Source: a virus
IMG/VR virus record: IMGVR_UViG_3300028822_000274
Span: 39,714-103,713 of that record
Length of the DNA stretch: 64,000 nucleotides
Direction: 5' to 3' (one strand)
Of this stretch, positions 9,082 through 57,653 are shown one piece after another. The notes beneath the pieces were generated by a model that was not told where the DNA came from, made no database searches, and saw only the letters and a list, made by a program, of their open reading frames with translations. The position numbers and the translations under genes were made by a program. How positions within the stretch are numbered: the stretch's first letter is position 1; each line of letters starts with the position of its first letter.

Positions 9082-9104
9082 CTCAAACGGAAGTTGAGAT
9101 TATA

Positions 9105-10258: not shown

Positions 10259-10401
10259 CGACTATTTTCGTGAAGAATGAACGAGTGCAGCCACTGTTTT
10301 TATCAGGGCTTGAGCCTGGTGAGTCGGTTCCGGATATTTACACGAATCTGGAAGTAGAGGTTTTAGATACCATCGAAGTCTCGATCTGCTGGGAGGACTA
10401 A
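10255..10401 (+). CDS. Small hypothetical protein, 48 aa
   Basis: An open frame starts at the ATGA overlap with the preceding gene and ends in TAA directly before the ATG of the next gene. The 48-aa product begins MTTIFVKNERVQPLF and is acidic with a C-terminal SICWED. The exact fit between two genes, with no spare bases, supports it being real. No function can be assigned. Confidence 0.6.
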   Translation: MTTIFVKNERVQPLFLSGLEPGESVPDIYTNLEVEVLDTIEVSICWED

Positions 10402-10749
10402 ATGGGACCTGTTGCAGCTACCTTTGCGATAAAACAAAATGCCAGGCGACCATATTTGAGGATGCTCGTCAAAGACCAAGATGGTAATCCGTTTGACTTT
10501 TCTGGCGCATCTGGCGTTACTTTTTTGATGTACGACGGTGAAGGAAACGAGATTGTATCCGCTCCGGCTTCTATTGAGGCTCCTCCTTCTTCCGGGGTCC
10601 TGAGGTATGCTTGGGCTGATGGAGATACGGAAGAAGCTGGTGAGTTTCGAGCGGAATTTGATGTCTCTTACGGAGCTGATGACGTTATGACAGTTCCGGT
10701 TAAAGGGAACATCCTTATTAGGATTTTTGGAGGTGTGAACGATGCCTAG
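10402..10749 (+). CDS. BppU-like N-terminal domain protein
   Basis: This 115-aa protein matches a widespread phage Ig-like domain. It has IKQNARRPYLRMLVKDQDG at the start, VTFLMYDGEG in the middle, SSGVLRYAWADGDTEEAGEF, and a C-terminal VPVKGNILIRI strand. Such domains occur as separate proteins or as N-termini of baseplate upper proteins and fibres. It is followed by the spike-like protein, with a short overlap, and may attach it. No enzyme activity is expected. Confidence 0.65.
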   Translation: MGPVAATFAIKQNARRPYLRMLVKDQDGNPFDFSGASGVTFLMYDGEGNEIVSAPASIEAPPSSGVLRYAWADGDTEEAGEFRAEFDVSYGADDVMTVPVKGNILIRIFGGVNDA

Positions 10750-13153
10750 TGTTTCTTTGGTTGTTAATGTTGCAGGTGAATCAGAAGGTGTTCCAGGCCA
10801 ATCAAGAACGTTTCCTTACTCAAAAATATCCGGTGCTGGGGCCTTAGTTACTGTGTCTCTGTCAGATAATACGGGCATCACGAGCTACTTTTGGGAGATC
10901 GTAGATAAACCGCCCGGTTCAACTGCTGTATTGAGTGATGCCACTGCATCAGCCCCGACTTTTACAGCAACACATGCAGAGCCTGGAACGTATCTCATAC
11001 GGTGTACTGTTAACGGTGGTCAGTCTTTTGGTACTATCGGTGTAGCCTTTACGACTGATACATTGGCTCTAAGGAAAATCGCAGCAGGGGAAACCACTGA
11101 GTTCGATGCACAAAAGGGTTGGTCAGTAGCGATAAATGATATTATAGAGGCAGCTGAGAGTTTTGGTTCGGGTGCCGTCTCAGGTGTTATTCGTTCTGAT
11201 GGTTCGGTGGCATTTGAGGGGGATCAGAGCTTAGGCGGCAATAAGTTGACAGATTTGGCTGCTGGGACAGAAGATAATGATGCTGCCACGTATGCCCAGG
11301 TAGTTGCTGCATCATTGTCTGGCAGTTCTTTGTACGGCTTCCCAAATTTTAAGGAAGATTCTACTCTATCTTTTGAGCCTATTTTTTCTGAATGGCAGTT
11401 TACCATTTCTCCAGTAGATACGACTTTTGATGTTTGGGTTGGGACAAAATTCAGTCTCACAGAACAAACGTTATTGATTTCTGGTGATTCTGGGTATCAT
11501 TGGATATATTTCAACTCTGATGGGATTCTTACTGAAGTTGTAAACCCAGACGAGGTTACAAAAAGAACTTTATACAGAGAAACTGCGCTTGTTGCTATCA
11601 TTTATTGGATTTCGCCAGGAACATGGATCTCCATGTCTGACGAGCGTCATGGTACGCTCATGGATGGTGCAAGTCGATATAATTTACACACAACGATAAG
11701 CCCAAAATACATGTCTGGTTTTGATCTTGGAGATTTTTTGCCTGATGAAGATGGATCTGTAATTGCACATGCCCAATTTTCTGTTTCTTCAGGTTCTTTT
11801 TCAGATGAAGACCTAATACATGATCTTGAAGAGCAAAGCAGTACAGCTGCTTGGTTTACTTATTTTAAAAATGGGGCTGGTGTGTGGGAAAGACACATTA
11901 ATCCGGACGTAAAAAAATGTGCATCAGCAATAAAATACTTTTCTCTCGGAGAGGCATTCCTAAGCCATTACAATTTAAATTCAGAAGGCACATGGAGCTT
12001 AGAGCCTATTCCAAACGAAAAGTATTTCATGGTTCATGTTTTTGCGACTAGCGACCCAGATAGACCTTTTATATCTGTAGTTGCCAGGTCATACCATAGT
12101 ATTTTATCGAAGGCGTTTTCGTCTGCCAGGGATGACATAATTGATATTTTGGCTGACCTTCCATTTCCAGAATGTATACCGATTGCGTCTGTGTGTTATC
12201 GTTCCTATAGAGGCGATACATTTGTTGTATCACTTAATTCAGATGGTGTTACTACGCATATAGATTGGAGAGAAGACACACACGAAGGAAATGTGATATT
12301 AAAAGATGGGGTAAACGTTGGGCCTCGATTTCCTGGGGACTCACTGAAACTGAGCCAGTATTCTTCTGATAGTTTGCTGGATAGGGCATTTATTATAAAT
12401 GGTATTTCTGTTGGAGATAGTATATCCGAACCTTCTATAACATTTACGATAGATGATGATTTTTGGGCTTCTATCGAGGTTTATGGTATATCAGGTGAAC
12501 TTGGATACTATAATAATATTCGGTTTCTTATACCGGATTATTTTGGTGGTGAAACAATTAATATAGCTAACTTCGGTGAGCGGCAAACAATTTTAGGTTG
12601 CGGTGGCAGTGATCATGAGCTTATCATAGATGGAGATGATTACTCTGAGCTTGGTTTTTATTCCGATGGGGACTACAGGTGTATGTTTGAATATTCACTT
12701 GGTACAGATGCACTAACAGTTAGTGGTATAGGACTTGGCGGAGGGGATAACTACCTGTGGATTACGCCTGGTTCGTTTTATATCTCTAATGCTGGTTATT
12801 ACGACGGATGTGTAGGAATACAGACTAGTGAGCAATATGACGAAACAGGTACTTACGTAGTAGATTCTTTTGAACCTTATAGAGATGCGGGCGGCTGTGA
12901 GTGGTTGTATGTTGCAGCAAATGATTCTGGGGCATCAGAAATTGTAAGAACAGGTAGAATCCATGTTGCATATAACATGGCTGATTCTTTGCTGGATGTA
13001 AATGAAGTTGTAGGGTCCGAAATAGGTACTTCAACAGACATAACTTTTGATGTAGCTATAAACGGAAGCTCAGTAGAGCTGAAGGCGACAAATTCGCTTG
13101 GATCCTGGAGGATCACTACCTATCTACTGAACATGGATAGCAGTCACGGCTAG
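10742..13153 (+). CDS. Tail spike-like protein with N-terminal PKD domain
   Basis: In this 803-aa protein residues about 1-105 form a PKD/Ig-like domain (SYFWEIVDKPPGSTAVLSD, then PGTYLIRCTVNGG). A short helical linker with DLAAGTEDNDAATYAQVVAA follows near residues 170-190, the connector motif used in many fibres. The remaining 600 residues are beta-rich without a recognised enzyme signature. It is likely a second receptor-binding protein beside the 1363-aa fibre. Glycan hydrolysis cannot be excluded, but no catalytic residues can be named. Confidence 0.65.
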   Translation: MPSVSLVVNVAGESEGVPGQSRTFPYSKISGAGALVTVSLSDNTGITSYFWEIVDKPPGSTAVLSDATASAPTFTATHAEPGTYLIRCTVNGGQSFGTIGVAFTTDTLALRKIAAGETTEFDAQKGWSVAINDIIEAAESFGSGAVSGVIRSDGSVAFEGDQSLGGNKLTDLAAGTEDNDAATYAQVVAASLSGSSLYGFPNFKEDSTLSFEPIFSEWQFTISPVDTTFDVWVGTKFSLTEQTLLISGDSGYHWIYFNSDGILTEVVNPDEVTKRTLYRETALVAIIYWISPGTWISMSDERHGTLMDGASRYNLHTTISPKYMSGFDLGDFLPDEDGSVIAHAQFSVSSGSFSDEDLIHDLEEQSSTAAWFTYFKNGAGVWERHINPDVKKCASAIKYFSLGEAFLSHYNLNSEGTWSLEPIPNEKYFMVHVFATSDPDRPFISVVARSYHSILSKAFSSARDDIIDILADLPFPECIPIASVCYRSYRGDTFVVSLNSDGVTTHIDWREDTHEGNVILKDGVNVGPRFPGDSLKLSQYSSDSLLDRAFIINGISVGDSISEPSITFTIDDDFWASIEVYGISGELGYYNNIRFLIPDYFGGETINIANFGERQTILGCGGSDHELIIDGDDYSELGFYSDGDYRCMFEYSLGTDALTVSGIGLGGGDNYLWITPGSFYISNAGYYDGCVGIQTSEQYDETGTYVVDSFEPYRDAGGCEWLYVAANDSGASEIVRTGRIHVAYNMADSLLDVNEVVGSEIGTSTDITFDVAINGSSVELKATNSLGSWRITTYLLNMDSSHG

Positions 13154-43533: not shown

Positions 43534-43836
43534 ATGTCGCTTACCTACAAAGAGGAACTGATTGAGACAAATTCTGGCATAGAACTTAAAGTCGCTTCTA
43601 GGACTGAAGCGGCAAAAGCTGCCGGAGCGATTGTCAAAAATTTCAGTGAAGGTCGCAAAGTCACACTGATTGCCATGGGTGCAGGAGCAGTCAACCAGGC
43701 AGTGAAAGCGATCTGTATTGCCAGGGGTATGGCAGCTCCTCACGGGCACAACCTTGCGACCATACCTGCTTTTGTCGACGAGATGGTCGACGGAGTAAGC
43801 AAGACAGCCATACGGTTTATCATTTTCAATAGATAG
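43534..43836 (+). CDS. SpoVS-like protein
   Basis: This 100-aa protein matches Stage V sporulation protein S (Alba-like fold) over nearly its whole length: ELKVASRTEAAKAAGAIVKN, VTLIAMGAGAVNQAVKAICI, ARGMAAPHG and LATIPAFVDEMVDG. In Bacillus SpoVS affects septation and spore coat; the fold suggests nucleic-acid binding. A phage copy beside RuvC and the 7-deazaguanine genes is unusual. It may bind DNA or RNA, but its role here is unknown. Ribosome site AGGAG precedes the ATG. Confidence 0.85.
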   Translation: MSLTYKEELIETNSGIELKVASRTEAAKAAGAIVKNFSEGRKVTLIAMGAGAVNQAVKAICIARGMAAPHGHNLATIPAFVDEMVDGVSKTAIRFIIFNR

Positions 43837-43847
43837 TAAGGTGAACC

Positions 43848-44258
43848 ATGCATACCATCGGTGTTTCAGTTGAGTTTGACTCAGCTCACAGGTTATTTCC
43901 GTATGAAGGCAAATGCTCAAACATTCATGGACATAGATATAAATTAGAAGTGGCATTCGTAGGAGACACCTCTTCTAATGCAATGGTTATTGATTTTGGT
44001 GTCGTGAAAGATGGCCTTAAAAGAATAATTGAAGAAAAATTGGACCACAAGCTGATCCTCAGTATTGCAGATCCAATAAAAGATGCGCTAGCAACATACG
44101 ATGTCAGCATGTTGTTGTTGCCGGATAGTCCAACAGCAGAGTCTTTGGTATCTTACATCCATCTATTACTCAGTAAAGAATTCCTGAGTTATTGGCCGGA
44201 GATAAAAATATCATACATTAGATTGTATGAAACTCCGACATGCTACGCTGAGATTTGA
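43848..44258 (+). CDS. queD: QueD, 6-carboxytetrahydropterin synthase
   Basis: This 136-aa protein has His14 (FDSAHR), Cys23 and His27/His29 (CSNIHGHRY), which are the catalytic cysteine and zinc ligands of the PTPS/QueD family, plus LDHKLIL and the C-terminal YETPTCYAEI glutamate region. QueD converts dihydroneopterin triphosphate to 6-carboxytetrahydropterin in the preQ0 pathway. FolE, QueE and QueC are encoded in the next 3 kb, so the substrate is well supported by context. Confidence 0.92.
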   Translation: MHTIGVSVEFDSAHRLFPYEGKCSNIHGHRYKLEVAFVGDTSSNAMVIDFGVVKDGLKRIIEEKLDHKLILSIADPIKDALATYDVSMLLLPDSPTAESLVSYIHLLLSKEFLSYWPEIKISYIRLYETPTCYAEI

Positions 44259-44260
44259 AT

Positions 44261-44953
44261 ATGTTCACGGTGAATGAAATATTTGCTTCAATTCAGGGTG
44301 AAGGACCGCGCATAGGCATTCCTGCTGTATTCATTCGTTTCTCAGGTTGCAATCTCAGTTGTGATTTTTGCGATACGGAGCATGAACAAAAAGAAGATCA
44401 CGATGTTGATTCCATAGTTGCGACTGCTAAACAGCTGGCAGGGTCTATGAGAGGATTGGATTGTGTTCTAACTGGGGGAGAGCCTCTTCTCCAGGTTACG
44501 GGAGCACTGTGCTCAAAGCTAAATGATGCTGGTTTCACTGTTACTTTAGAGACAAATGCTTCTGAAGAACTGACAAAAGATACTGAATCTTTGTATAGAG
44601 TTAATAATGTTATTTACAATTGTGACTATGTTGTTTCATCCCCAAAGAACTGTGATTACAGCAATTGGATATTGAGAAACTCCGATTGTCTAAAATTGAT
44701 TTTTCCGATGCTTTTTTACTCTAACGAAGGCGTATTATCTGATATGGTTTCACATATAAACATCAAAACTTTAGATTCAAACAGATTAGTACTACAACCA
44801 ATGACTGTTTTAAACGAAGACTGTTTGCTGGAAAAAGATCTGTATGAAACGATTTGCAAGTACGCTTGTGAGTTTGCGTCTGTTAGAAATGAGAATTTCA
44901 GAGAAAACTGGCGCGTAATACCACAGGCCCATGTATTCATGGGCCTAAGATGA
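44261..44953 (+). CDS. queE: QueE, 7-carboxy-7-deazaguanine synthase
   Basis: The ATG at 44261 follows the queD stop directly. The 230-aa radical SAM protein has SIQGEGPRIG and the cluster motif CNLSCDFC (Cys30, Cys34, Cys37) with LTGGEPLLQ downstream, all typical of QueE. It converts carboxytetrahydropterin to 7-carboxy-7-deazaguanine using SAM and a 4Fe-4S cluster. The pathway partners flank it. The length is normal for the family. Confidence 0.92.
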   Translation: MFTVNEIFASIQGEGPRIGIPAVFIRFSGCNLSCDFCDTEHEQKEDHDVDSIVATAKQLAGSMRGLDCVLTGGEPLLQVTGALCSKLNDAGFTVTLETNASEELTKDTESLYRVNNVIYNCDYVVSSPKNCDYSNWILRNSDCLKLIFPMLFYSNEGVLSDMVSHINIKTLDSNRLVLQPMTVLNEDCLLEKDLYETICKYACEFASVRNENFRENWRVIPQAHVFMGLR

Positions 44954-44964
44954 AGGAGTCAAAA

Positions 44965-45312
44965 ATGACAGAGTATCGCGAAGGAAACGAAGGCGTCGCC
45001 CAGCTCAGAAGCAAGAAAGAAGACCAGCCGGAAGGTGAGCAGGCTGAGAATGAAGGCAACACGCAGGAGATGCACGAAACCGCTGTCCTGTTGGTTCTGA
45101 CCTCTGATGGGAGGCTCGAAGCAGCTACCCAATTGCCCAGCATCCCGATGCGTAGGCAGGCGACTCTGAGGGACGTCAGGGATATTTGTCATGCCATGTA
45201 CAGTGATATTCAGGTTACGCTGGTAGGGAAAGCTTCTGCACATGAGTCTTCTGCGGCAATCCAGAGGACCTTGGCTCAAAGCCAGATCAAAAACATGCAA
45301 AAAAAGATCTAG
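44965..45312 (+). CDS. Conserved hypothetical phage protein
   Basis: This 115-aa protein (ATG 44965, AAGGAGTC upstream) has an acidic disordered start and a folded end: HETAVLLVLTSDGRLEAATQ, then RQATLRDVRDICHAMYSDIQ. No family function is known to me. It sits between queE and folE, which is unusual for an unrelated gene. It may simply be carried along. Confidence 0.5.
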   Translation: MTEYREGNEGVAQLRSKKEDQPEGEQAENEGNTQEMHETAVLLVLTSDGRLEAATQLPSIPMRRQATLRDVRDICHAMYSDIQVTLVGKASAHESSAAIQRTLAQSQIKNMQKKI

Positions 45313-45320
45313 AGGTAGTT

Positions 45321-45890
45321 ATGTTGTGTGAATCTGAGGTGGTTTCGTTTGGAGAAATGAAGGCTGCTGTGAGAACAATACTGAAAGGCATAGGCGAGGA
45401 CGATACGAGAGAAGGGTTGCTTGACACCCCATCGCGCGTTGCCAGGATGTACTTCGAGCTGACAAAGGGACTCAGAACGGAGCCACCTCAGATTACGGCT
45501 TTTTCCAGCGATTCAGTTGACCAGTTGGTTACTTTACTTGATGTCGATTATTCATCTCTTTGCGAACATCATCTCGTTCCTTTCTATGGTAAAGCACACA
45601 TAGGCTATCTCCCAGGAGACAAGCTCATGGGCCTCTCAAAGTTTGCACGTGTTTTGGATTGGTTTGCAGCCAGGCCTCAAATTCAAGAAAGGCTCACATC
45701 TGAAGTTGCTGACTACATAATGGAGAACCTTGAACCCGTTGGTGTTATCATTTTGATAGAAGGTACTCATACATGTATGTCGATTCGCGGCGTGAAAAAA
45801 CCAAATCATGTCACAGTGACGAGTGCAATTAGAGGTGATGTTCCAAGAGATGAGTTCTTCGACATACTAAACTCGAACAGGGATAGGTAA
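45321..45890 (+). CDS. folE: GTP cyclohydrolase I
   Basis: This 189-aa protein has the zinc and catalytic residues of GTP cyclohydrolase I: Cys81 in SSLCEHHLVPF with His83/His84, and Cys152 in THTCMSIRGV. GYLPGDKLMGLSKFARVLDW between them is diagnostic. It makes dihydroneopterin triphosphate from GTP, the first step towards preQ0. Its stop overlaps the next ATG as TAATG. Confidence 0.93.
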   Translation: MLCESEVVSFGEMKAAVRTILKGIGEDDTREGLLDTPSRVARMYFELTKGLRTEPPQITAFSSDSVDQLVTLLDVDYSSLCEHHLVPFYGKAHIGYLPGDKLMGLSKFARVLDWFAARPQIQERLTSEVADYIMENLEPVGVIILIEGTHTCMSIRGVKKPNHVTVTSAIRGDVPRDEFFDILNSNRDR

Positions 45891-46270
45891 TGAGCAAGCT
45901 CAGAATTTGTTTTGATATAGATGGAGTTATTGCTACTGGAACAATAGATGGTGTCTATTCAGATGCTGCTGGCTGGAATTTCAATAAGTGTGACCCGATA
46001 CCGGAAACAGTAGATTTGATAAAAAGGCTCAAAGATCATGGGTGCGAGATCTTTTTGAACACTGCGAGGTTTGATGAAGATAGGGGTGTGACAGAAGAAT
46101 GGCTAAAAAAGCATGCGATCCCTTATGATCGGTTGTTAATGGGTAAACCTCATGCTGATCTCTACATAGATGACAAGAATTACCCCCAACCGTTTTGCCC
46201 TACAGATGCAGCACATTTCGGTGCTATTATAGAGGAGGCGATGTCACATGCCGGTAGGAGATTCGACTAG
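45890..46270 (+). CDS. HAD-superfamily phosphatase-like protein
   Basis: This 126-aa protein shows HAD motifs: CFDIDGVI (motif I, two Asp), FLNTARF (motif II), MGKPHADLYIDDKN (Lys and Asp of motifs III/IV). It resembles small capsule-biosynthesis phosphatases. Placed between folE and queC, it could dephosphorylate a pterin or sugar intermediate of the modification pathway; the substrate is inference. It overlaps queC by 23 bases. Confidence 0.65.
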   Translation: MSKLRICFDIDGVIATGTIDGVYSDAAGWNFNKCDPIPETVDLIKRLKDHGCEIFLNTARFDEDRGVTEEWLKKHAIPYDRLLMGKPHADLYIDDKNYPQPFCPTDAAHFGAIIEEAMSHAGRRFD

Positions 46271-46979
46271 ATACCATGTTGTTTTGAACAGTGGTGGCCC
46301 GGATTCTCTGATAACTTATTTTGCTCTTTGCAGGGCTTTTCCAGGTGACATCGTTGCTTCTGTTTATTTTGACCTGGGTCACAGGTACGCTCTTGAAGAG
46401 AAGCTGGCCGCAGCAATGACAGTACCTGATACACTCATGCTTGAGCCACTTCGTGGCCTTGGCGAGTGGGAGGAAGAGGATGCACATATCCACCTCAGGA
46501 ATGTATTTCTCATTCTTGCTGCCACTAAGCTGTTCAATGAGAACACGACTATCTATCTGTCTGTCCAGAAGGATGAGATGGATATTCCTGATAGGAAGCC
46601 CTTGACTCTAGCTTCAATAAATAGCCTTCTCACTGTTTTGGGGATTGATGCTTCAGTTAAGTCTCTGTGGAACCACAAAGACAAGACAGACATGGTCAAG
46701 CAATATGTAGAAATGGGTGGGTGCAAGAAGAAGCTGTACTCTACTTGGTCCTGCTATAATCCAACTCGGATGTATAGCAACCGCAGGGTAGTTCATTGCG
46801 GTGATTGCCCGGCATGCATACGAAGACACATTGCTTTTGTTCTTGGCTCTGGCGAAGACAGAACTTTGTACAAAAATGATCCCGAAAAGAGCGATACTGC
46901 CGAAAAATATGAATACCGAGCAAAATGTGGTGTTTATAGTGAAGACAGGTGTAAAAGGATTTTGTCGGTGATCAAATGA
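46248..46979 (+). CDS. queC: QueC, preQ0 synthase-like
   Basis: This 243-aa protein has the PP-loop SGGPDS (residues 15-20) and the zinc site formed by Cys169, Cys184, Cys187 and Cys190 (HCGDCPACIRRH), as in QueC. QueC turns 7-carboxy-7-deazaguanine into preQ0 with ATP and ammonia. The middle is somewhat divergent from bacterial QueC, so a variant product such as the amide cannot be excluded. The start lies inside the HAD gene. Confidence 0.85.
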   Translation: MPVGDSTRYHVVLNSGGPDSLITYFALCRAFPGDIVASVYFDLGHRYALEEKLAAAMTVPDTLMLEPLRGLGEWEEEDAHIHLRNVFLILAATKLFNENTTIYLSVQKDEMDIPDRKPLTLASINSLLTVLGIDASVKSLWNHKDKTDMVKQYVEMGGCKKKLYSTWSCYNPTRMYSNRRVVHCGDCPACIRRHIAFVLGSGEDRTLYKNDPEKSDTAEKYEYRAKCGVYSEDRCKRILSVIK

Positions 46980-48028
46980 ACAAAATAAAGGCATTGAAAG
47001 TAGAGTGGTTGTTTACGAGAAAGTGCAACCTGAGCTGCAGTTATTGTAAAATACGAAGGAGTCCTCTGTATGCTGACGAGCTTGACACAGAAGAAGCCAA
47101 AGATGCTGTCAGCTTTATAGGATATAACTGGCCTGGTGCACCGATAGTGTTTTTTGGTGGGGAACCTACTGTACGCAATGACCTGCCTGATGTCATAAAG
47201 CACGCTGTCGAATCCAAGGTGAAGCCGATTGTTATTTCAAATTCTCTTCGTGTTTTAGAGGATGAGGAATATCGCATTCGTCTTGTTGAGTCAGGATTGA
47301 AGAATTGGTCAATCTCATATGATGGACCCGATAAGATGATCAAAGATACGGCTGTACGGAAGAAGTCATCTGCTGGATTGCGTGCCATACGAATGTTCCG
47401 AGATCAATATGGTTTTGACGATCTTGTTGCTTGCATCACTGTTAACAAATACAATATCGACTCGCTACCGAAGATAGTTGAGTTTCTATCAAAAGAAGGG
47501 ATCTGGTCCATTTGCACCCCTCTGCAGCTAGGTGGCCATGGTTATGACTATTCGAGTGGGCATGAGACAGATATGCCCTCTAAAGTTCAGGTCGAAAGAT
47601 CTTCGAGATTGCTGCGCAGAATGGCTAACAGCGGCAACTACTTGATGCACAACCGGAGTGTTTGGTTTGACGCTTGGCCTGATCACTTCATATCTCAGTC
47701 GTGGCATTGCCACGATAAAAGCATTTTGACACTCGATGCTGACGGGTTCTTGAGATATTGCGTAGATAAGCAACTGTCTTCCCCAGTGAGCCTTTTTGAT
47801 TTGATGTCAAACGAAGGGCGCGAGTCCTATCAGAATGTTCTCAAACAAGGTCCTCTGAATGGTTGTCGTGGTTGTTTCTGGGACCCAGCATTCGAGGCAA
47901 TTCTACGCGGACTGGACCCAGAAATGTCTGAGGATCAGGGGAGGTCTTCTTACCGTCATGAACTATCCGAAGAACAAATAGCACGGCTTCTTCCAGAAGC
48001 CAGAAAGATTTGGGACAATCATGGATAA
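46976..48028 (+). CDS. Radical SAM enzyme with C-terminal Cys motif
   Basis: This 350-aa protein has the radical SAM motif CNLSCSYC (Cys17, Cys21, Cys24), FFGGEPTVRND near residues 59-69, and a SPASM-like end with Cys245, Cys262, Cys297 and Cys300 (WHC, YCVDK, NGCRGC). It is not QueE, which is present separately. It overlaps queC as an ATGA and is followed by glycosyltransferases, so it probably modifies the base or a sugar of the DNA modification. No known phage 7-deazaguanine enzyme can be matched by eye. Confidence 0.8.
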   Translation: MNKIKALKVEWLFTRKCNLSCSYCKIRRSPLYADELDTEEAKDAVSFIGYNWPGAPIVFFGGEPTVRNDLPDVIKHAVESKVKPIVISNSLRVLEDEEYRIRLVESGLKNWSISYDGPDKMIKDTAVRKKSSAGLRAIRMFRDQYGFDDLVACITVNKYNIDSLPKIVEFLSKEGIWSICTPLQLGGHGYDYSSGHETDMPSKVQVERSSRLLRRMANSGNYLMHNRSVWFDAWPDHFISQSWHCHDKSILTLDADGFLRYCVDKQLSSPVSLFDLMSNEGRESYQNVLKQGPLNGCRGCFWDPAFEAILRGLDPEMSEDQGRSSYRHELSEEQIARLLPEARKIWDNHG

Positions 48029-48812
48029 GATTTCAGTAGGCATACCGACGATAGGGCGTGATGAGACTTTGCCGTCTGTTTTGAATTCTATTTCTTTCCA
48101 GAAGGATTTCGTTTCAGAGGTAGTCATCCTCGACGAGTCTGTGAAGCCGATAACCGAGAATTTTGCAGTGCGTCAGGCAATGGACTTGCTCTCTATTCTC
48201 GGTGTGGATGTCATCTACGTCAGGGACAGGAATAAACGCGGGATAGGGAATGCGCGTTATCGTCTGTGTGAAATAGCAAAAAGCGAATTCATTCTCCAGG
48301 TAGATGATGATGTTGTCTTGGATCCAGACTGCATATCTGTATTGATGGACAACGGTGATGATTTTGTCTGGGCTGTGCCGACTTGTGTTTTGGTTCCAGG
48401 TCACTTGGTGACAGACGGATATAGTGTTGACGTAGTTGACAGATATGATCCTGAGGTCATGAAATGGACTGAAAAGTATCCGTGGTTCATCCCTTATTTC
48501 AGATACCAGCAGTCGTTTTCCTGCCGGATAGATTGTGCTGGGACACAGGCAATCCTCGTTGACCGAAAAGCTGTTTTAGGGCACGCGGGGAAAATGAGAA
48601 ATTTTGGTAGACTCCCAAGGGAGGACACATATTTGACAACCATCCTTGGTCCAGGAGTTTTCTGCTCGGACGCTGTTTGCTATCACTTCGAGCACCCTGA
48701 CCAAGCTGACAGAAGCAACTGGGGATCTTCGATGTTTTATCGGATCCATGAAGTTGTAAACAAATACCCAGAAATTTTCGCAGCTATTTTTGGTGAGAAA
48801 AATGCACCTTGA
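48021..48812 (+). CDS. Family 2-like glycosyltransferase A
   Basis: This 263-aa protein has a GT-A/GT2 start (ISVGIPTIGRDETLPSVLNS), the nucleotide-sugar metal motif VDDDVVLDP, and an acceptor-side ED-type motif (LPREDTYLTTIL). It lacks membrane segments, so it acts on a soluble or DNA acceptor rather than a lipid. It overlaps the radical SAM gene by eight bases and the deacetylase by 11. Confidence 0.8.
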   Translation: MDKISVGIPTIGRDETLPSVLNSISFQKDFVSEVVILDESVKPITENFAVRQAMDLLSILGVDVIYVRDRNKRGIGNARYRLCEIAKSEFILQVDDDVVLDPDCISVLMDNGDDFVWAVPTCVLVPGHLVTDGYSVDVVDRYDPEVMKWTEKYPWFIPYFRYQQSFSCRIDCAGTQAILVDRKAVLGHAGKMRNFGRLPREDTYLTTILGPGVFCSDAVCYHFEHPDQADRSNWGSSMFYRIHEVVNKYPEIFAAIFGEKNAP

Positions 48813-49473
48813 AAAACCGATTTTTTGTTTTCACAGTGTTTGCTCTCTAGAGTCATTGCCTCCATCATCTTGCTGGCCTTCGGAGACGCATTTTGACATG
48901 TTTTCAAAGCATCTTCGTGTTGATGATGAGTGGTTTACGTCGTTCATTCAGAAAGCACAGGCTGTTTGGGGTGATTTCTCGATCACCTTTGATGACGGCT
49001 ACATGGACTGTGTGATTCCAGCGATTTTTGCTGCTTCAAAGGGCATCGATACTACGGTATTTGTTTCGTTTGACCACGTAGGAAGACAGGCACCGTTTTC
49101 GCCTTTACCTATGCTGAGGGACATTGACCTCTATCATCTCGCTGAGCATGGAGTTCGAATAGGGTCTCACGGTATGAAGCACAGGGACTGGAAGCTGTTG
49201 CCAGACAATGTCGTAAGGAAAGATATTTTCGATTCTTTCAACCAGTGTCAGACATTTGATTTCTTCAGCAAGTTGAAAACATCTTTCAGGATTGCTCCTC
49301 CACACGGGTCTTTTTACAACAATCACGTCGATATGTGTACCGAGATCGGTTTTGACAGGTTTTTAGGCGTGGATTGCCCATACACTGATGATTACGTCAG
49401 TAGTCGCGTGTTGGCTTGTGCCAGTGGTTATCGTGTAGGGGATGAGGAGTTTGTCTGGCCGTGGGGAGGTTGA
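48802..49473 (+). CDS. CE4/NodB-like polysaccharide deacetylase
   Basis: I use the ATG at 48802. The 223-aa protein has the NodB motifs: SITFDDGYMD (Asp64/Asp65), GSHGMKHRD (metal ligands His123 and His127) and FRIAPPHGSF. These bind the metal and catalytic water that remove N-acetyl groups from sugars. There is no signal peptide, so it works in the cytoplasm. It lies between two GT2 genes, which suggests that it deacetylates a GlcNAc-like sugar on the phage modification, leaving a free amine. That link is inference. Confidence 0.8.
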   Translation: MHLEKPIFCFHSVCSLESLPPSSCWPSETHFDMFSKHLRVDDEWFTSFIQKAQAVWGDFSITFDDGYMDCVIPAIFAASKGIDTTVFVSFDHVGRQAPFSPLPMLRDIDLYHLAEHGVRIGSHGMKHRDWKLLPDNVVRKDIFDSFNQCQTFDFFSKLKTSFRIAPPHGSFYNNHVDMCTEIGFDRFLGVDCPYTDDYVSSRVLACASGYRVGDEEFVWPWGG

Positions 49474-49474
49474 C

Positions 49475-50320
49475 ATGATTTTGGTTGGAATACCGACGAG
49501 AAACAGGCCGGAATATCTGGCGGCCTTGCTGTCTTCCCTGATGTTCCAGACCGAGCAGCGTTTTGATGTACTCATAGTTGATTCAGCTCAGGGATCAGAG
49601 AAGAGAGTGAAGGACTCTACGATAGCGTGCAGGTTCATTGAGGCATTGCTTGGTCTAGGCCATAGAGTTGATGTTGTAACTGACTTTGCTTTATGCGGGT
49701 TGTCAGAAGCAGCAGCTGTAAATCATATTTTGAGTGTGGCAGAATCAAAAAGGTACGATTTTGTCTACAAGGTAGATGACGACCACGTTCTAGAACCTCA
49801 TTGCCTGAGGACTCTTTCTTTATCATTGACATCGACTAATAAATATAATCCTTCATTGATAAGCGGTATGACTCCTTGGATGCACAGCATTGGACCAGGA
49901 ATGTCTTCTCCTTCTGACGATGCAAGGCATACACATGAGCTTGGACCAAACGTAACCTATCTTGAGTGCAAAGATACTGTCTTAAAAGTAGTCATAAATC
50001 ATTTCGATAGATTTGAAGAGCCAGAGATAAGGTCGACCGTTCTTGCATCCGCTGCAAACTTCATGATGAAACCAGATACAAGGATTCTTTGGTCTGATGT
50101 CAGTGGATCCTCTTTTTATTTGGACGCAATGTGGTTTTTGAGATTAAGGAATTTACTGAGTTACAGTTTGTTTTTTCATACTGGCGTTAATGCATGGCAT
50201 GTAGCCGCAGACACTGGCGGTGTCAGGACAGAAAAAGGCAACCACGAGAAAAACTCTGATATTGATTATTTCAATTTTGCTCTTCTATTTAATATGGCTC
50301 GTGGTTTTAAGGAGATATGA
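49475..50320 (+). CDS. Family 2-like glycosyltransferase B
   Basis: The ATG at 49475 is favoured, with GGGGAGG upstream. The 281-aa protein begins MILVGIPTRNRPEYLAALLS, has the metal motif KVDDDHVLEP and a long acceptor domain rich in aromatic residues (SGSSFYLDAMWFLRL). No membrane segment is seen. It is related in plan to glycosyltransferase A but not closely similar. It would use a nucleotide sugar in the cytoplasm. Confidence 0.75.
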   Translation: MILVGIPTRNRPEYLAALLSSLMFQTEQRFDVLIVDSAQGSEKRVKDSTIACRFIEALLGLGHRVDVVTDFALCGLSEAAAVNHILSVAESKRYDFVYKVDDDHVLEPHCLRTLSLSLTSTNKYNPSLISGMTPWMHSIGPGMSSPSDDARHTHELGPNVTYLECKDTVLKVVINHFDRFEEPEIRSTVLASAANFMMKPDTRILWSDVSGSSFYLDAMWFLRLRNLLSYSLFFHTGVNAWHVAADTGGVRTEKGNHEKNSDIDYFNFALLFNMARGFKEI

Positions 50321-51276
50321 TGAAGATCAATTTTTTGGCCTCTATACCTGATGAGGGTTGGGCTGTGCCATATTGTTCTGCTGTTATAGATGCATGTGAA
50401 CAATCCGGTGACTGTGAAATATACAGAACGGATGGGATGTCAGAAGCGGAAGTTTTCAGGCTGGTAATGTCAGCAAGGAAGTGTGATGTTTGGTACAGCG
50501 CAAATATACTGGACATCTGGATGAAGCCGCTTGTGATAAAATCAAACATAGAAGGATCAAAAATAGTCGTACACAATCACGGCGGAATGGAAACACATGA
50601 CATAGTATCCCTTGTCCTTGGAAACGAAGATACTCAGATGCTTCCTATAGCTGCTTCATCAAGTTTTGGTGTTCATGTTTTATTCAATACCGAGCACAAC
50701 AGGACTGCTTTTGAGGACTATTACGGCACCTGTATGGCGAATAGTCATGTCGTAGGTTTTCCTGTCAGAAGGCCTGCCAGGCAAGTCGACAAGATCAAAA
50801 GGATCCTTGTTCCAGGTAGATTTTGCGCTACAAAAAATACACATCTCGCCGCAGAGATACTTCTGCCATTTGCTGACTCTGTTGTTTTCTCGACCATGCA
50901 CACCAAGAAGTGTGATTACTGGAAAATGCTTGAGTCGCTTGGTTATGATGTTGTCACTGCAGTTGGGCAAGCTTTCGACAAATTGCTGTACGAGAGCCAG
51001 ATAGTGTTCACTGCCAGCATGTCTGATTCCTTTAATTCTTCTATTGCCGAGGCGGCCTCTTTCGGTGCCAGTGTTGTTGCTCCTGACTGGGGCCCTTTCC
51101 CAGAATACGTGAATGATGCTGGTCTTTATAATGCTTTCAGTGTCGATATGGCCAGAGGAAGGGTACGTCTTTTTTTGAGCATGGGTAAAGAGGCCCCAAA
51201 AAGTGATGTTTCGATGTTTTACAGAGACAAATTCATAGACAGAGTCAAAAAAGTATTGAGGAAGCTAGAGCCATGA
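50320..51276 (+). CDS. GT-B (family 4-like) glycosyltransferase C
   Basis: This 318-aa protein (ATG at 50317 or 50320) shows a GT-B C-terminal domain: KRILVPGRFCATKNTHLAAE, then MSDSFNSSIAEAASFGASVV followed by APDWGPFPEYV near residues 240-270. This is the EX7E-type sugar-nucleotide site. The N-terminal half contains VVHNHGGMETHD. GT4 enzymes include QTMAN, which adds mannose to queuosine in tRNA, so a 7-deazaguanine acceptor has a precedent. Confidence 0.75.
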   Translation: MKINFLASIPDEGWAVPYCSAVIDACEQSGDCEIYRTDGMSEAEVFRLVMSARKCDVWYSANILDIWMKPLVIKSNIEGSKIVVHNHGGMETHDIVSLVLGNEDTQMLPIAASSSFGVHVLFNTEHNRTAFEDYYGTCMANSHVVGFPVRRPARQVDKIKRILVPGRFCATKNTHLAAEILLPFADSVVFSTMHTKKCDYWKMLESLGYDVVTAVGQAFDKLLYESQIVFTASMSDSFNSSIAEAASFGASVVAPDWGPFPEYVNDAGLYNAFSVDMARGRVRLFLSMGKEAPKSDVSMFYRDKFIDRVKKVLRKLEP

Positions 51277-52301
51277 AAATTGCATTTGTCGTTCCGTATC
51301 TGTGGGCTGATTTCACAAAAGAAAAAACACCGAACATCGTGAAGCACTACATCAGTCTGTCCAACGCCATGCTTGAAAGGGGACATGACGTCCACATGCT
51401 CATGCTCGGGAAGGATGGTGCTTACACGTCTGATGCTGGCCTGAAATGCAGGTTGATTTGCGCCGAAAACAGCATGTCATTCTCTCAGAAGGTGTCTGAT
51501 TGGTTGCTCCATAACAGAATGGATGTTGTGGAGGGCACTTCTGATCTTGCTCCTCTCCTGGTGCCTGAGGCAGTTTCTGCCGCACCTATTGTTGTGAGGG
51601 CTCATCCCCTCCAGGGTTACATTGTTGCCCATGGAATGTTCTTGAAAGCAGAAAGCCTGTCTCTTGGTAATTCATTGGTTGATATAGAAGCACGGAGCAA
51701 GCTCGAAGACGCTACGATCCGATATGCAGATGTGGTTTCTTGTCCATCGAAACAGGTTCTCGAGGTTGTGGCCGGTGTCAACAACAGAGCAGATATAGCA
51801 CCAACATCAATACCTAATTTTTCATATGATTTGCCAGAAGAGTTTGAAACGGTTTCTGTTCTTGTGTCCCCTTACATGGAAGACTCGTGGTTGGATAAGC
51901 TCAACATAAAACTCAAGATGCTTGGTTATAGAGTGAAACTTATTGAGCATGACATGTGCATGCTAGAAACGTTTGATAGAATAACTGAGTCGTTTGCAGT
52001 TTTAACAGCAGAGAAGTTTTCATTGACTCATAATTTTGAGTTGACATCAATGCATGCAAGACGGCCTGTAATATGTTTTGGCAGGAATGACCTCTCTGGA
52101 TCTCCTGTTTTTGACTTAGGTTCTTTTTGTGACGAGTCTCTCGGTAAATTAGAAGAGGTATTTGGCTTCATAAAATCTAATTTTGACGAAGTCGCACGAA
52201 AAGGTATTATATTTACTAATAAATATATAGAAAAAGAAGCGGCTAAGATTCATGAAAAGATTTATGAAAAAGCAGTCGCAGTAAGATCAGGAAAAATTTG
52301 A
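51273..52301 (+). CDS. GT-B (family 4-like) glycosyltransferase D
   Basis: This 342-aa protein has an N-terminal GT4-like fold (MKIAFVVPYLW, SLSNAMLERGHDVHMLMLG, VVRAHPLQGYIVAHG). Its C-terminal half is more divergent: VAVLTAEKF-like strands, MHARRPVICFG and no clear EX7E. It may be a partner or degenerate subunit of glycosyltransferase C, with which it overlaps by four bases. The dpdA gene follows seven bases later. Confidence 0.6.
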   Translation: MKIAFVVPYLWADFTKEKTPNIVKHYISLSNAMLERGHDVHMLMLGKDGAYTSDAGLKCRLICAENSMSFSQKVSDWLLHNRMDVVEGTSDLAPLLVPEAVSAAPIVVRAHPLQGYIVAHGMFLKAESLSLGNSLVDIEARSKLEDATIRYADVVSCPSKQVLEVVAGVNNRADIAPTSIPNFSYDLPEEFETVSVLVSPYMEDSWLDKLNIKLKMLGYRVKLIEHDMCMLETFDRITESFAVLTAEKFSLTHNFELTSMHARRPVICFGRNDLSGSPVFDLGSFCDESLGKLEEVFGFIKSNFDEVARKGIIFTNKYIEKEAAKIHEKIYEKAVAVRSGKI

Positions 52302-52308
52302 GGTAGTC

Positions 52309-53916
52309 ATGTCAGAAGAAACAGCAATAGAAAAAGTAGAAGGTATCACTGAGTCTGACATCGAAGAGACACTGGAGTATACTCCTGTTGGCAGGAATAT
52401 AGGCGCAGAAAAGTTTGTCGATAAATGGGATAGGCAGCTTCAAATAGACAGGCGTGTCTTCGGGACGAAGCTGTGTTTTGCTGGTGCTGAGGAACGAAAA
52501 CTTCGCGACGGCCTGCACAGGATTGGTGTTAGAAATATTCTTCTGTCATTTTACTACTTCAAGAAGTTCCTGAGGAAGCGTTCTATCCAGGAAATTGCGG
52601 ATGACATAGGTCGCTTTGACTACGTTATTCTCGATTCTGGTGGATTCACTTTCATGGAGGCTTTGAAGAATGGCGAAAAGCTGGACATGGACATTCGCCA
52701 GTATGCCGACCTGTACCATTCTGAAGTTGAGCGGTTTGGGCATGTCTTTACAGCTTGTGCTGAGCTTGACGTTCACGATGCCTTTTCCCAGAAAGAGATG
52801 GAGAACATCAGAGACCACCTGACAGACAAGGGTGTGTCGATGCTTCCTGTTCTTCATGGGGAGCAGTTAGATTATTACCGTGATCTTGGGTGGTTTAAAA
52901 AATACCCTTATATGGCGATTGGTTCGGCCCTGATAGGAAGGAACAAGCCAAGTCCTATTCTGCGTGACTACTTTACAGAGGCAAGAAAGACGGGAACGTT
53001 GTTGCACGGGTTTGGGGTAACCACTGTTGATGCACTACGGAAAATGCCATGGTACAGCGTTGACAGCACGACTTGGATGGGTGGTACGCGGTACGGAAAT
53101 ACGATGGTGTTTCAGAATGGTCGCCTCAGGTATTACGATTACAAAAAGAAAGATGTCCGAAAACGGTTCAAGAAAAGATTTGAAGAGAGCGGTTTAATTT
53201 GGGGTGACATCGAAAGGGAGAAGCCGCTCGAAATAAACCTGATGAATGCTCTCGGCTGGAAACAATGGGCTGACTACGTCAAGTACAACGTTCAGAATGC
53301 CTATTGGCTTACACCTGAAGAAAAGGATGAGGCCCTTTCGTTGAAATCCAAGGTGTTCAACACAGAGGGCATTATCAACAGGTCTGCATCTCTTGCCAGG
53401 GCTGAAGCTCGACGTCTTACACAGGTGGAAGACGCGAAGTACGACGACCGTGCTCACGAGATGCTTCATTGTGATACCTGTGCGATGGCAGGAAGGTGTC
53501 CCAGGTTCAAGGAAGGTGAGCCATGCGGATATGACATCAACGTCCGTTTGGAGACGAATCTTGACTTGCAGAAAGCTCTTCAAAACATTCTAGAGGTTGA
53601 GTATGGAAGAGTCATGACAGGTGCTCTGTTTGAGAAGCTTGAGGGTGGTGTTTTAGACTCGAATGTATCGAATGAGATGAAAAATCTCCTCGGCATGATC
53701 GAACAAATGAGAAATATGTTTAGTCAACGACGGACAGAAGAACTGCAGATAACAGCAAAATCAGAAGGTGGCTCCGGCACAGTATCGAAAATGTTGGCTT
53801 CTGTTTTTGGGCCACGTGGCTCGAATGGCTCAGGTTCAGGATCGACTAAAACTCAACGAGCGTCAAATCAAGTCATAGATGTTTCACCGATTGATGATGT
53901 AGATGGTGATAATTAA
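52309..53916 (+). CDS. dpdA: DpdA-like DNA 7-deazaguanine transglycosylase
   Basis: This 535-aa protein is a TGT-like barrel of the DpdA type: LDSGGFT (108-114), AELDVHD (151-157), LLHGFGVTT (231-239) and SVDSTTW (250-256). The aspartates in DSGG and ELD match TGT acid/base or nucleophile sites. After about residue 380 it carries a Cys cluster (388, 391, 397, 406) followed by a helical domain that I recognise from other phage proteins. DpdA swaps guanine in DNA for preQ0 or a derivative. The complete preQ0 pathway upstream strongly supports this. Confidence 0.9.
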   Translation: MSEETAIEKVEGITESDIEETLEYTPVGRNIGAEKFVDKWDRQLQIDRRVFGTKLCFAGAEERKLRDGLHRIGVRNILLSFYYFKKFLRKRSIQEIADDIGRFDYVILDSGGFTFMEALKNGEKLDMDIRQYADLYHSEVERFGHVFTACAELDVHDAFSQKEMENIRDHLTDKGVSMLPVLHGEQLDYYRDLGWFKKYPYMAIGSALIGRNKPSPILRDYFTEARKTGTLLHGFGVTTVDALRKMPWYSVDSTTWMGGTRYGNTMVFQNGRLRYYDYKKKDVRKRFKKRFEESGLIWGDIEREKPLEINLMNALGWKQWADYVKYNVQNAYWLTPEEKDEALSLKSKVFNTEGIINRSASLARAEARRLTQVEDAKYDDRAHEMLHCDTCAMAGRCPRFKEGEPCGYDINVRLETNLDLQKALQNILEVEYGRVMTGALFEKLEGGVLDSNVSNEMKNLLGMIEQMRNMFSQRRTEELQITAKSEGGSGTVSKMLASVFGPRGSNGSGSGSTKTQRASNQVIDVSPIDDVDGDN

Positions 53917-55036: not shown

Positions 55037-55321
55037 ATGGGTAATTTAAAAAAATCAAACAAAAGCAAGCGAAGCAAACGGAAACCCTCTCAATTTGAGA
55101 GGAGAGCAAAGAGGGCTCACAAGACAGCCACGACATTATCTACTATTGAGAATATCCTGGCCGGAGCTTTGGGCGACAAACTAAATTTTAGTTTTGGCCA
55201 TTCGAGACAGATCAACAATTCTTACGGTGTTGATTGTGTTCCGGGGGGTTTTATTGCCCTGGGGTATGACCTCACAAAACTGACGCTTGCTGATGCGGAT
55301 AAGAAGAATGTCCTTATATAA
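55037..55321 (+). CDS. Basic hypothetical protein, 94 aa
   Basis: The first 30 residues of this 94-aa protein are strongly basic (KKSNKSKRSKRKPSQFERRA). The rest contains LAGALGDKLNFSFGHSRQIN and GGFIALGYDLTKLTLADADK. It overlaps the methyltransferase start by 14 bases. It may bind nucleic acid. The family is not recognised. Confidence 0.5.
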   Translation: MGNLKKSNKSKRSKRKPSQFERRAKRAHKTATTLSTIENILAGALGDKLNFSFGHSRQINNSYGVDCVPGGFIALGYDLTKLTLADADKKNVLI

Positions 55322-55898
55322 TATCGTTTACGCAGACCCTCCATGGTACTACAGGGATAAAGCTGCAGCTGGAGAGCGTGGTGCTGGGCACAAATACCAA
55401 ACGATGCGTGATGATGAGATAGCTAATTTGACTGTAGAATCCATCGTTGCAGATGACGCAGCTTTATTTTTGTGGACAACAAAGCCGAAAATAGATGTTG
55501 CGTTGTGGGTGCTTAGGAAGTGGGGGTTTATCTACAAAACGTTCGCTTTCGACTGGATAAAGCTATCGAAAGAAGGGCGGCCTAAGTTTGGCATGGGACA
55601 CTGGACAAGGGCGAACGCAGAGCATGTTCTTCTAGGCATACGCGGGAATCCAAAGAGAATATCTGGTGGTGTGAGTTCTGTTGTCATGACCACACCTGGA
55701 AAGCACTCTAAAAAACCAGATGAAGTAAGGGATTCAATCGTAACACTCATGGGTGACATCCCGAGGATAGAGTTGTTCGCCAGGAAGCGTGTCGATGGGT
55801 GGGATGCGCTTGGGTATGATGTCGGGACTGGAGACATTACAAAATCAATAAACGCTATGAGCAAGGAGAGAGACCGAAATGAGAATCGTTCGAGTTAA
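55308..55898 (+). CDS. MT-A70-like adenine methyltransferase
   Basis: This 196-aa protein starts MSLYNIVYADPPW, with the catalytic DPPW at residues 10-13. It continues with ALFLWTTKPK, KWGFIYKTFAFDWIKL, and GMGHWTRANAEHVLLGIRG, the usual MT-A70 order. Family members transfer methyl from SAM to N6 of adenine in DNA or RNA. In phages they commonly protect DNA from restriction, here perhaps beside the 7-deazaguanine system. Confidence 0.88.
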   Translation: MSLYNIVYADPPWYYRDKAAAGERGAGHKYQTMRDDEIANLTVESIVADDAALFLWTTKPKIDVALWVLRKWGFIYKTFAFDWIKLSKEGRPKFGMGHWTRANAEHVLLGIRGNPKRISGGVSSVVMTTPGKHSKKPDEVRDSIVTLMGDIPRIELFARKRVDGWDALGYDVGTGDITKSINAMSKERDRNENRSS

Positions 55899-56400: not shown

Positions 56401-57013
56401 TGATTATCAAACTGGAGTGCTTCAAACAGCATCATGCGACAAAAAGAAAATAACAAATCGCTTTATGGGGTTTGTGGAACCACCACCAAATGAAAACATA
56501 ATCAATCTTCTTCATTCTATTCTTGGCGTTACAAGCGAAGTCGGTGAGCTTTTAGGGGCTGAAACTGATGAGAACGTGATAGAGGAGCTTGGGGACCTTC
56601 TATGGTATACGACGCTTGGAATAGATGCGCTAGGAGAGAAGCTCGCTGTTCCAAGCATAAACTACATGTTTGACAAATATCTTAACAACAATTTTGTCGT
56701 GGATAGGATGTCAAAATTGTTTTGTTTGTCTGCTGAACTTTCTTCTATCTTTAAGGCATTCCTTTTCTACGGTAGAGAGATCAAAAAACAGGATGTTCTT
56801 TCGAAACTCAAAGATGTCTCAGAATTGATATTCGCCATAGGTTACACCTTCTCTCATTCCCCCAGGGCACTGATGGAAAAGAACCAGAAGAAGCTCCTCG
56901 ATAAAGAGAAGGGACGATACAAGTCTGGTTCATTCTCTGAGGATTCAGCGAACGTTCGCGATGTTAATTCCGAGTATGAGGCCATGCGTCTAGTGGAGGG
57001 AAAAGATGACTGA
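56390..57013 (+). CDS. MazG-like nucleotide pyrophosphohydrolase
   Basis: The ATG at 56390 lies in the overlap with the zinc-finger gene. The 207-aa protein has GVTSEVGELLGAETDENVIE followed by ELGDLLWYTTLGID. This gives the ExxE...ExxD metal-binding pattern of MazG/all-alpha NTP pyrophosphohydrolases (about residues 43-78). Phage members may adjust nucleotide pools or ppGpp; here it could remove unwanted dNTPs. A second helical half follows without a repeated motif. Confidence 0.75.
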   Translation: MQASDYQTGVLQTASCDKKKITNRFMGFVEPPPNENIINLLHSILGVTSEVGELLGAETDENVIEELGDLLWYTTLGIDALGEKLAVPSINYMFDKYLNNNFVVDRMSKLFCLSAELSSIFKAFLFYGREIKKQDVLSKLKDVSELIFAIGYTFSHSPRALMEKNQKKLLDKEKGRYKSGSFSEDSANVRDVNSEYEAMRLVEGKDD

Positions 57014-57653
57014 GCGTGGTAAATTTGTGGTTGTAGAAGGCCTTGATGGTGCCGGAACAACATCAATAACTGCTGATCTCGTCAGACATTTCGAGGCTCT
57101 AAACAGGCCGTGTGTTTCAAGTAGAGAGCCATACAGCGAAGAGCTGACCCCTACCTTACGGAGATTCATTTCTGGTGAGTTCGAGGATCCGGGCTGGAGA
57201 GCTATGGCCATGCTCTTCTCAGCAGACAGACTCATCCACTGCAACGATTTGGAACAAGTTCTTGCCTCTGGGACGAGTGTGATTTGCGACCGGTACGTCG
57301 GTTCCACCATCGCATACCAAACAGCTTTTGCGCCGGACGAAGAGAAGGAAGAGGCCAAAAAACTGATTGAAGGCCAGCTGTCGAGAGGCATAATAAAACC
57401 GGACTTCACGTTGTTTTTAAAAGCGGATGTGGAAGTCTGTTCTTCTAGGCGTCGTGGTAGTCGCTTCGTCGAGGATTATTACGAGGCCGTCGAGTTCCAA
57501 AAGAAGGTATCAAAAACCTACGAAGAATGGGTTAATAAGAGTTCAATAAACGGTGAGGACCTTATCATTGTTATTGATGCCAACAGGAAGTATGAACTCG
57601 TTCTCCAGGACTGTTTGATTTGTTTTCATGTATTTTTTGGAGGTAAGTTTTAG
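57006..57653 (+). CDS. tmk: Thymidylate kinase
   Basis: This 215-aa protein has the P-loop EGLDGAGTTS (about residues 11-20), the REP segment (SSREPYSEEL), DRYVGSTIAYQ (the DRY/Y motif) and a LID-like SRRRGSRFVED. This is the dTMP kinase signature. It would make dTDP for phage DNA. The gene overlaps the MazG-like stop by eight bases, forming a nucleotide-metabolism pair. Confidence 0.9.
   Translation: MTERGKFVVVEGLDGAGTTSITADLVRHFEALNRPCVSSREPYSEELTPTLRRFISGEFEDPGWRAMAMLFSADRLIHCNDLEQVLASGTSVICDRYVGSTIAYQTAFAPDEEKEEAKKLIEGQLSRGIIKPDFTLFLKADVEVCSSRRRGSRFVEDYYEAVEFQKKVSKTYEEWVNKSSINGEDLIIVIDANRKYELVLQDCLICFHVFFGGKF

Follow-up and report, generated by a model that had tools for sequence, protein, structure and literature searches.

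A phage dpdA cluster with linked glycosyltransferases and an altered QueC as a candidate source of glycosylated 7-deazaguanine in DNA

Which modified base is made when a phage gene cluster combines the enzymes of 7-deazaguanine synthesis with a DpdA-family transglycosylase and several sugar-handling enzymes, and is that base placed in DNA? The question is raised by a stretch of 64,000 nucleotides (the window), which corresponds to bases 39714-103713 of the 103,713-base IMG/VR virus record IMGVR_UViG_3300028822_000274; the record may be incomplete. The cluster order in the window is QueD-QueE-orf120-FolE-HAD-QueC-rSAM-GT2-CE4-GT2-GT4-GT4-DpdA, where rSAM is a radical S-adenosylmethionine (SAM) enzyme, orf120 a 120-residue protein, HAD a small phosphatase, GT2 and GT4 are glycosyltransferases and CE4 is a polysaccharide deacetylase. 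Judged from its genes and from related loci, this cluster probably makes a glycosylated 7-deazaguanine that is placed in the phage's own DNA.

Glycosyltransferases beside dpdA

Related loci were collected from viral contigs by a DpdA profile scan, which gave 80 loci, and by further scans with QueC, rSAM and GT2 profiles. A single DpdA sequence used as the query found zero relatives in viral contigs, and a scan built from a close pair of sequences returned only L090. Three sister phages were identified: L090 (97,475-base record), L110 (113,045 bases) and L111 (104,014 bases). They share with the window, in order, QueD-QueE-orf120-FolE-HAD, rSAM, the core glycosyltransferase GT2a and DpdA; the QueC of L111 lies elsewhere in its record. 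The layout is not due to chance because it is repeated in three sister phages. FolE, QueD and QueE, which supply 7-carboxy-7-deazaguanine (CDG), are all present in the window and kept in the sisters.

The interval between rSAM and DpdA holds GT2a, CE4, GT2b, GT4a and GT4b in the window; GT2b, GT2a and a GT25 (Pfam) in L090; GT2a, GT2b and a GT4 in L110; and GT2a and a GT4-like protein in L111. GT2a is common to all four phages and is 51-63% identical among them, on par with DpdA (49-66%) and rSAM (45-52%). The outer enzymes have diverged. GT2b, with counterparts in L090 and L110, is 31-42% identical, and GT4b, with distant counterparts in L110 (above the Pfam cut-off) and L111, is 23-26% identical. 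CE4, GT4a and GT25 were each found in one phage only, the first two in the window and the last in L090. A conserved GT2a with changing outer transferases is what would be expected of a decorated base under selection, which suggests such a base and does not prove it. GT2a carries the GT2 motifs, DDD at residues 95-97 and ED at 201-202. Its model shows a GT-A fold (predicted local distance difference test score, pLDDT, 73), and the fold comparison pointed to no particular donor. GT4b had no match among annotated phages. The stretch L090 16562-17170 had no Pfam match, and its interpretation as a sulfotransferase was abandoned.

Outside the sisters, three other groups carry a GT2 beside dpdA. The group L095, L114 and L115 has a GT2, a QueC-HAD fusion and DpdA, with rSAM in L095 and L114; L050 has the order QueC-GT2-DpdA-QueD-QueE-FolE; and L054 has DpdA-GT2-QueC. 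When the nine GT2-bearing records were scanned with PF00535, 12 of 12 matches fell within the cluster. As a control, GT2s were present in 8 of 50 other DpdA records, at roughly 5-46 kb from dpdA (converted coordinates). Eleven GT2a relatives were found in viral contigs; the best seven are in DpdA clusters and the weakest four are not. An earlier model-made reading of the same DNA (the sequence-only reading) had named linkage of such sugar genes to polysaccharide loci as an outcome that would refute it. This linkage was sought in 84,980 prokaryote species genomes and was not found: GT2a orthologs were absent, and the sole match, at 21% identity, came from a Chitinophagales polysaccharide locus without dpd genes and was judged unrelated. 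The pattern method used detects close relatives only, and the result therefore indicates the absence of near orthologs, not of GT2 relatives in general. The place of the sugar genes beside dpdA in these loci supports their assignment to the dpdA system.

The DpdA of the window matches phrog_887 over residues 53-499 (Table 1), which places it in the DpdA family. It is 32% identical to the DpdA of phages Cracklewink and Bipper, and its relative in Streptomyces phage GiJojo is annotated dpdA-like. In a tblastn search with this DpdA against 68 phage DpdA-like records, all matches were below 60% identity and none covered 80%. D109 is invariant, and D252, which from knowledge of tRNA-guanine transglycosylase (TGT) we take to be the other catalytic aspartate, is present. 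The extra C-terminal part holds CDTC..GRCP...CGYD at about residues 385-410, and a similar stretch occurs in Streptomyces phages BRock, GiJojo and Alone3. The dpdA gene of L110 (13811-16747) encodes 979 residues because an intein-like element of about 420 residues interrupts the conserved SxDS/TTW motif; the parts on either side of it match the window DpdA at 48% and 67%. Tandem duplication of dpdA was seen in L100 (13047-14974) and L058 (9983-11930).

The altered QueC and its partner enzymes

Libby et al. 2026 found that Escherichia coli QueC requires Y35, R99, Y131 and Y189 for preQ0 synthesis, which was abolished in the Y35A and Y131A mutants (PMC13329287). The phage QueCs were aligned to E. 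coli QueC (L122) and comprise 45 canonical sequences (E. coli counted in) and 27 altered ones (that of the window counted in). The Y35/Y131 signature (YxQxHxxE, YPDC) was found in 45/45 canonical and 0/27 altered QueCs. The altered QueCs retain the ATP loop, R99, N100, D133, K165, the zinc cysteines and mostly Y189. Their residue 35 is aliphatic or other (Tyr in 0/27), Tyr stands at 39 in 24 of them, residue 134 is Lys or Arg in 26/27, loop 72-75 is deleted in 27/27, and an additional C-terminal segment is present.

The window QueC has L43 and I113 at the positions of E. coli Y35 and Y131, and neither essential tyrosine is present. Its signature is LGHRYALE / IHLRN / IPDR / CY, versus YGQRHRAE / VPGRN / YPDC / CY in E. 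coli. R84 and Y170 correspond to R99 and Y189 and are both retained. An SGGPDS loop is present, and C169, C184, C187 and C190 align with the E. coli zinc site, with a spacing of 14 versus 8. The nearest solved structures were QueC, followed by Cap9 and QatC. An identity as QatC was rejected: the QatC model NF041925 ranked above the QueC model, yet with only 49.7 bits (cut-off 280) and over the C-terminal part only, the 243-residue protein lacks QatC-specific motifs and extensions, and no qat neighbours are in the cluster.

Two partner enzymes go with the altered QueC. Among 67 loci with DpdA and QueC, rSAM was present in 17/26 altered-type versus 0/41 canonical-type loci (Fisher p 9e-10) and HAD in 18/26 versus 2/41 (p 2e-8); these p-values overstate the association because related loci are among those counted and part of the set came from rSAM or QueC searches. 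Within the set, the altered type is present wherever an rSAM locus has a QueC. The sequence-only reading had seen a complete preQ0 route in the cluster. This route is unlikely in the window because its QueC lacks the essential Y35 and Y131 and belongs to this non-canonical, HAD- and rSAM-linked subfamily. The altered QueC probably joins CDG to an amine other than ammonia, as its residues suggest.

All 11 members of the HAD family match TIGR01689, a capsule biosynthesis phosphatase, the window member with a score below cut-off (Table 1). The family profile matched 1xpj (7e-16) and 9iqw, a capsule biosynthesis protein (3e-12), in the PDB. The HAD aspartates, T58, K86 and D94 are invariant.

The rSAM profile found 13 viral loci, of which 12 have DpdA in the cluster; the 13th has QueD and QueE, and its contig ends inside rSAM. 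The window enzyme has the cysteine pattern of the Twitch/SPASM type: CX3CX2C (C17-C21-C24), C245-X11-G257-X4-C262 and C297-X2-C300. In 16 aligned members, C17, C21, C24, C245, G257, C262 and C300 are invariant and C297 is nearly so. The second cysteine set is typical of one auxiliary cluster, which would be predicted here. The predicted model (pLDDT 85.5) is nearest to the folds of PqqE, CteB, DesII, BlsE, MoaA and viperin. Among annotated phages, matches to rSAM were weak and confined to a metagenomic jumbo phage record. The L111 rSAM gene (8576-9718) is split by an in-frame TAG where its relatives have Trp; a sequencing error, a recent loss and readthrough cannot be told apart.

A wider uncultivated group (L097-L108 and L065) has rSAM, the altered QueC, usually HAD, and DpdA, with no glycosyltransferases. 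The rSAM clusters without glycosyltransferases often carry one or two class I methyltransferases (L065, L099, L100, L103-L105). This group probably makes other new deazaguanine derivatives. The L104 cluster (4443-12369) holds a pair of rSAM genes and both QueC types along with HAD, a methyltransferase and DpdA, and the second QueC is fused to a glutamine amidotransferase-like part. In the Bacteroides phage isolate BS162P1 (OP172706; L004), an altered-type QueC (9226-9951) adjoins a dpdA split into two reading frames, with QueE nearby. No cultured phage with the cluster of the window was found, and BS162P1 is an isolate in which a base other than preQ0 could be sought.

Proposed product and competing explanations

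Two described systems suggest a chemistry. Cap9 joins CDG to a protein amine rather than to ammonia (PMC13279940). In the Campylobacter jejuni capsule, the carboxylate of a sugar acid and serinol phosphate are joined by an ATP-dependent ligase, the product is dephosphorylated by a HAD enzyme, and a GT2 then adds the next sugar (PMC13276843). By analogy, the altered QueC may couple CDG through an amide to a linker such as a phosphorylated amino-alcohol, the HAD may free this linker, and the linker would bear a diversifying glycan; this detailed scheme is tentative. FolE, QueD and QueE would convert GTP to CDG, as expected for their families. The altered QueC would activate the CDG carboxylate with ATP and couple it to an amine other than ammonia, as the lost preQ0 residues and the Cap9 case suggest. 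The HAD would remove a phosphate, perhaps that of a phosphorylated amino-alcohol linker, and expose a hydroxyl, and the rSAM might supply or remodel the linker or the base. DpdA, going by its family, would swap guanine in DNA for the modified base. The first sugar would be attached by GT2a and the glycan extended or deacetylated by GT2b, the GT4-like proteins and CE4, before or after DpdA insertion. A logic like that of C. jejuni would account for the altered QueC and its fusion to HAD, for a Lys or Arg residue at the substrate mouth and for a GT2 in need of a hydroxyl. We read the rSAM, HAD and altered QueC as a set that would build a handle, which sugar or methyl enzymes would decorate. The likely purpose is to shield the DNA against host nucleases, with outer sugars that differ between phages.

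The sugar enzymes could instead be a passenger cassette, in which case the que genes and dpdA would yield a plain 7-deazaguanine and the glycosyltransferases and deacetylase would alter the host surface or virion proteins. GT2, GT4 and CE4 are families typical of surface polysaccharides, the GT25 of L090 belongs to a family best known from lipopolysaccharide loci, and cyanophage glycosyltransferase clusters, which vary likewise between related viruses, were interpreted as surface modifiers (PMC7824862). However, the GT2a slot between rSAM and dpdA is kept in all four sisters, a GT2 stands beside dpdA in three more groups with none elsewhere in the nine records, GT2a is missing from prokaryote genomes save for the one 21% match, and the genes around the cluster serve replication and recombination and are not tail genes. 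A passenger role is considered unlikely. The route of the sequence-only reading, in which preQ0 is made and inserted and is then reduced or otherwise opened by rSAM and glycosylated, appears quite improbable. FolE, QueD, QueE, a QueC-family protein and DpdA are present and the QueC retains R99, Y189 and the zinc cysteines, but the altered subfamily has lost Y35, Y131 and the loop throughout and replaced C134 by Lys or Arg in all members except one, and genes for QueF, ArcS or a glutamine amidotransferase were not seen in the cluster. The claim of that reading that the sugar genes elaborate the dpdA base is upheld for the linkage, which the comparative search it had called for found again in three sisters and three further groups; its derivation of the base from preQ0 is not upheld.

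The base might also go into host or phage tRNA, as a glycosylated queuosine-like residue, and not into DNA. Mannosyl- and galactosyl-queuosine occur in animal tRNA (PMC12518689), which gives sugars on a 7-deazaguanine side chain a precedent, though not in DNA. DpdA is homologous to TGT, and for its long form an activity on DNA is predicted from the family. Yet the window protein groups with phage DpdA (phrog_887, the dpdA-like protein of GiJojo, and the DpdA of Bipper at 32%), and characterised DpdA relatives insert into DNA (PMC6884629), which makes a tRNA target very improbable. Several points also weigh against a glycosylated base in DNA. The chemistry is read from gene content, order, motifs and conservation. 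DNA and polysaccharide glycosyltransferases are not separated by sequence, and a role on DNA would follow from linkage. No enzyme of donor-sugar or amine biosynthesis was found in the window proteins scanned, and the fold comparison of rSAM singled out no reaction. The long-form DpdA has no PDB match and no characterised close relative, and both GT4-like proteins reach Pfam models only under the cut-off. From some clusters with an altered QueC, rSAM, HAD or both are missing, and the association counts take related phages as independent.

Locus layout, known systems and meaning

Fourteen co-directional genes lie within 43534-53916, the SpoVS-like gene counted in, with junctions of -32 to +11 bases (Table 1). 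The gene types and coordinates of a packed cluster with overlapping junctions, as given by the sequence-only reading, agree with the profile matches, motifs and sister layouts. Its listed genes were all recovered, their order was corrected, and it had missed the HAD and orf120. For orf120, there were zero matches in Pfam, PHROG or NCBIfam.

Table 1 Genes of the cluster and the adjoining SpoVS-like gene, with positions in the window.
Gene product	Position	Strand	Evidence
SpoVS-like gene	43534..43836	+	PF04232 1.6e-24; sisters 54-65% identical; directly upstream of QueD, place kept in L090 and L110
QueD (6-carboxytetrahydropterin synthase)	43848..44258	+	PF01242 2.3e-29; TIGR03367 7e-22, slightly below cut-off
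QueE (CDG synthase, radical SAM)	44255..44953	+	PF04055 5e-9; best NCBIfam matches are five QueE models (2e-24), all below cut-off
orf120, 120-residue protein	44950..45312	+	sisters 29-36% identical; position kept in three sister phages
FolE (GTP cyclohydrolase I)	45321..45890	+	PF01227 1.9e-62
Small HAD phosphatase	45890..46270	+	TIGR01689 match, 28 bits (cut-off 162)
QueC-family enzyme, altered subfamily	46248..46979	+	PF06508 5e-14; 243 residues
Radical SAM enzyme, one auxiliary Fe-S cluster motif	46976..48028	+	PF04055 1e-15
GT2a, core glycosyltransferase	48021..48812	+	PF00535 8e-12
CE4 polysaccharide deacetylase	48790..49473	+	PF01522 1e-8; TFDDG and SHGMKH motifs intact
GT2b, second GT2	49442..50320	+	PF00535 6e-7; DDD motif intact; 33% to GT2a over 116 residues
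GT4-like glycosyltransferase a	50317..51276	+	PF00534 1e-3, PF13692 1.5e-3 (both below cut-off); phrog_2170 2e-5
GT4-like glycosyltransferase b	51273..52301	+	PF13439 1e-4, below cut-off
DpdA, long form with extra C-terminal part	52309..53916	+	phrog_887 1.7e-52

The neighbours of the cluster in the window are a primase, a helicase, a DNA polymerase, RecA, a ligase, a PD-(D/E)XK nuclease and RuvC, and the identified tail genes all lie before 13.2 kb, away from the cluster. It is uncertain that the SpoVS-like gene is part of the modification system. Several phages have a SpoVS-like gene in the vicinity of dpdA (also L004 8625-8927, L005 1480-1866 and L010 1933-2223); the gene adjoins the cluster in the sisters and is 1-8 kb off in other phages. 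A few kb downstream of the cluster, an MT-A70 adenine methyltransferase-like gene (55287-55898) and a thymidylate kinase (57006-57653) were found, and the phage may therefore modify more than one base.

The DpdA systems of phages 9g, CAjan and Rosebush likewise combine the FolE-QueD-QueE supply with a DpdA-family transglycosylase in one cluster (Hutinet 2019, PMC6884629). Those phages have a canonical QueC or a Gat-QueC, and their bases, dPreQ0, dPreQ1, dADG and dG+, carry no sugar; a term search of that text found no mention of a radical SAM or glycosyltransferase accessory enzyme. Cap9 of the type IV cyclic oligonucleotide-based antiphage signaling system (CBASS) and QatC share the QueC fold with an altered or reused active site, and Cap9 uses a non-ammonia amine. 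They differ in that their targets are protein N-termini, in defence systems; the motifs of QatC are different and it has additional domains, and Cap9 retains Y/F and YxDC where the altered phage QueCs have L and V/I-x-D-K/R. The C. jejuni capsule glucuronamide route (Cj1438C ligase, Cj1435 HAD and GT2s; PMC13276843) shares the logic of amidation, HAD step and GT2. The phage HADs are distantly related to the capsule phosphatases, the C. jejuni ligase and acceptor differ, and the product is a capsule, not a nucleic acid. T4-type glucosylated hydroxymethylcytosine and other glycan-bearing pyrimidines are alike in having a sugar on a phage DNA base and variable glycosyltransferases, and unlike in being pyrimidines with a different handle and enzymes. 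Animal glycosylated queuosine (QTGAL, QTMAN) also bears its sugar on the 7-deazaguanine side chain, but in tRNA, with a cyclopentene acceptor and animal enzymes.

The sequence-only reading had called a sugar-bearing 7-deazaguanine undescribed in DNA. Consistent with this, literature text searches returned no such base in DNA and no rSAM/HAD module, with Cui et al. 2023 and a 2024 de Crecy-Lagard review covered through later papers that cite them. Cui et al. 2023 reportedly described DpdL, DpdM and DpdN, with methylamino, formylamino, plain deaza and carboxy forms. These are likewise said to be extra enzymes beside dpdA that elaborate the base, with small groups only. Neither sugars nor such an rSAM/HAD module are known to be included in Cui et al. 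2023. A December 2025 paper states that further-modified deazaguanines exist, citing Cui et al.

If the proposed product is true, the cluster would unite 7-deazaguanine replacement and base glycosylation, two so far separate phage DNA chemistries, in a sugar-bearing purine, and phage DNA would become a further use of QueC-family chemistry. The uncharacterised module of rSAM, HAD and altered QueC, found across unrelated phages, points to deazaguanine bases beyond the current list. Variation in the outer sugars hints at an arms race between the phages and host nucleases.

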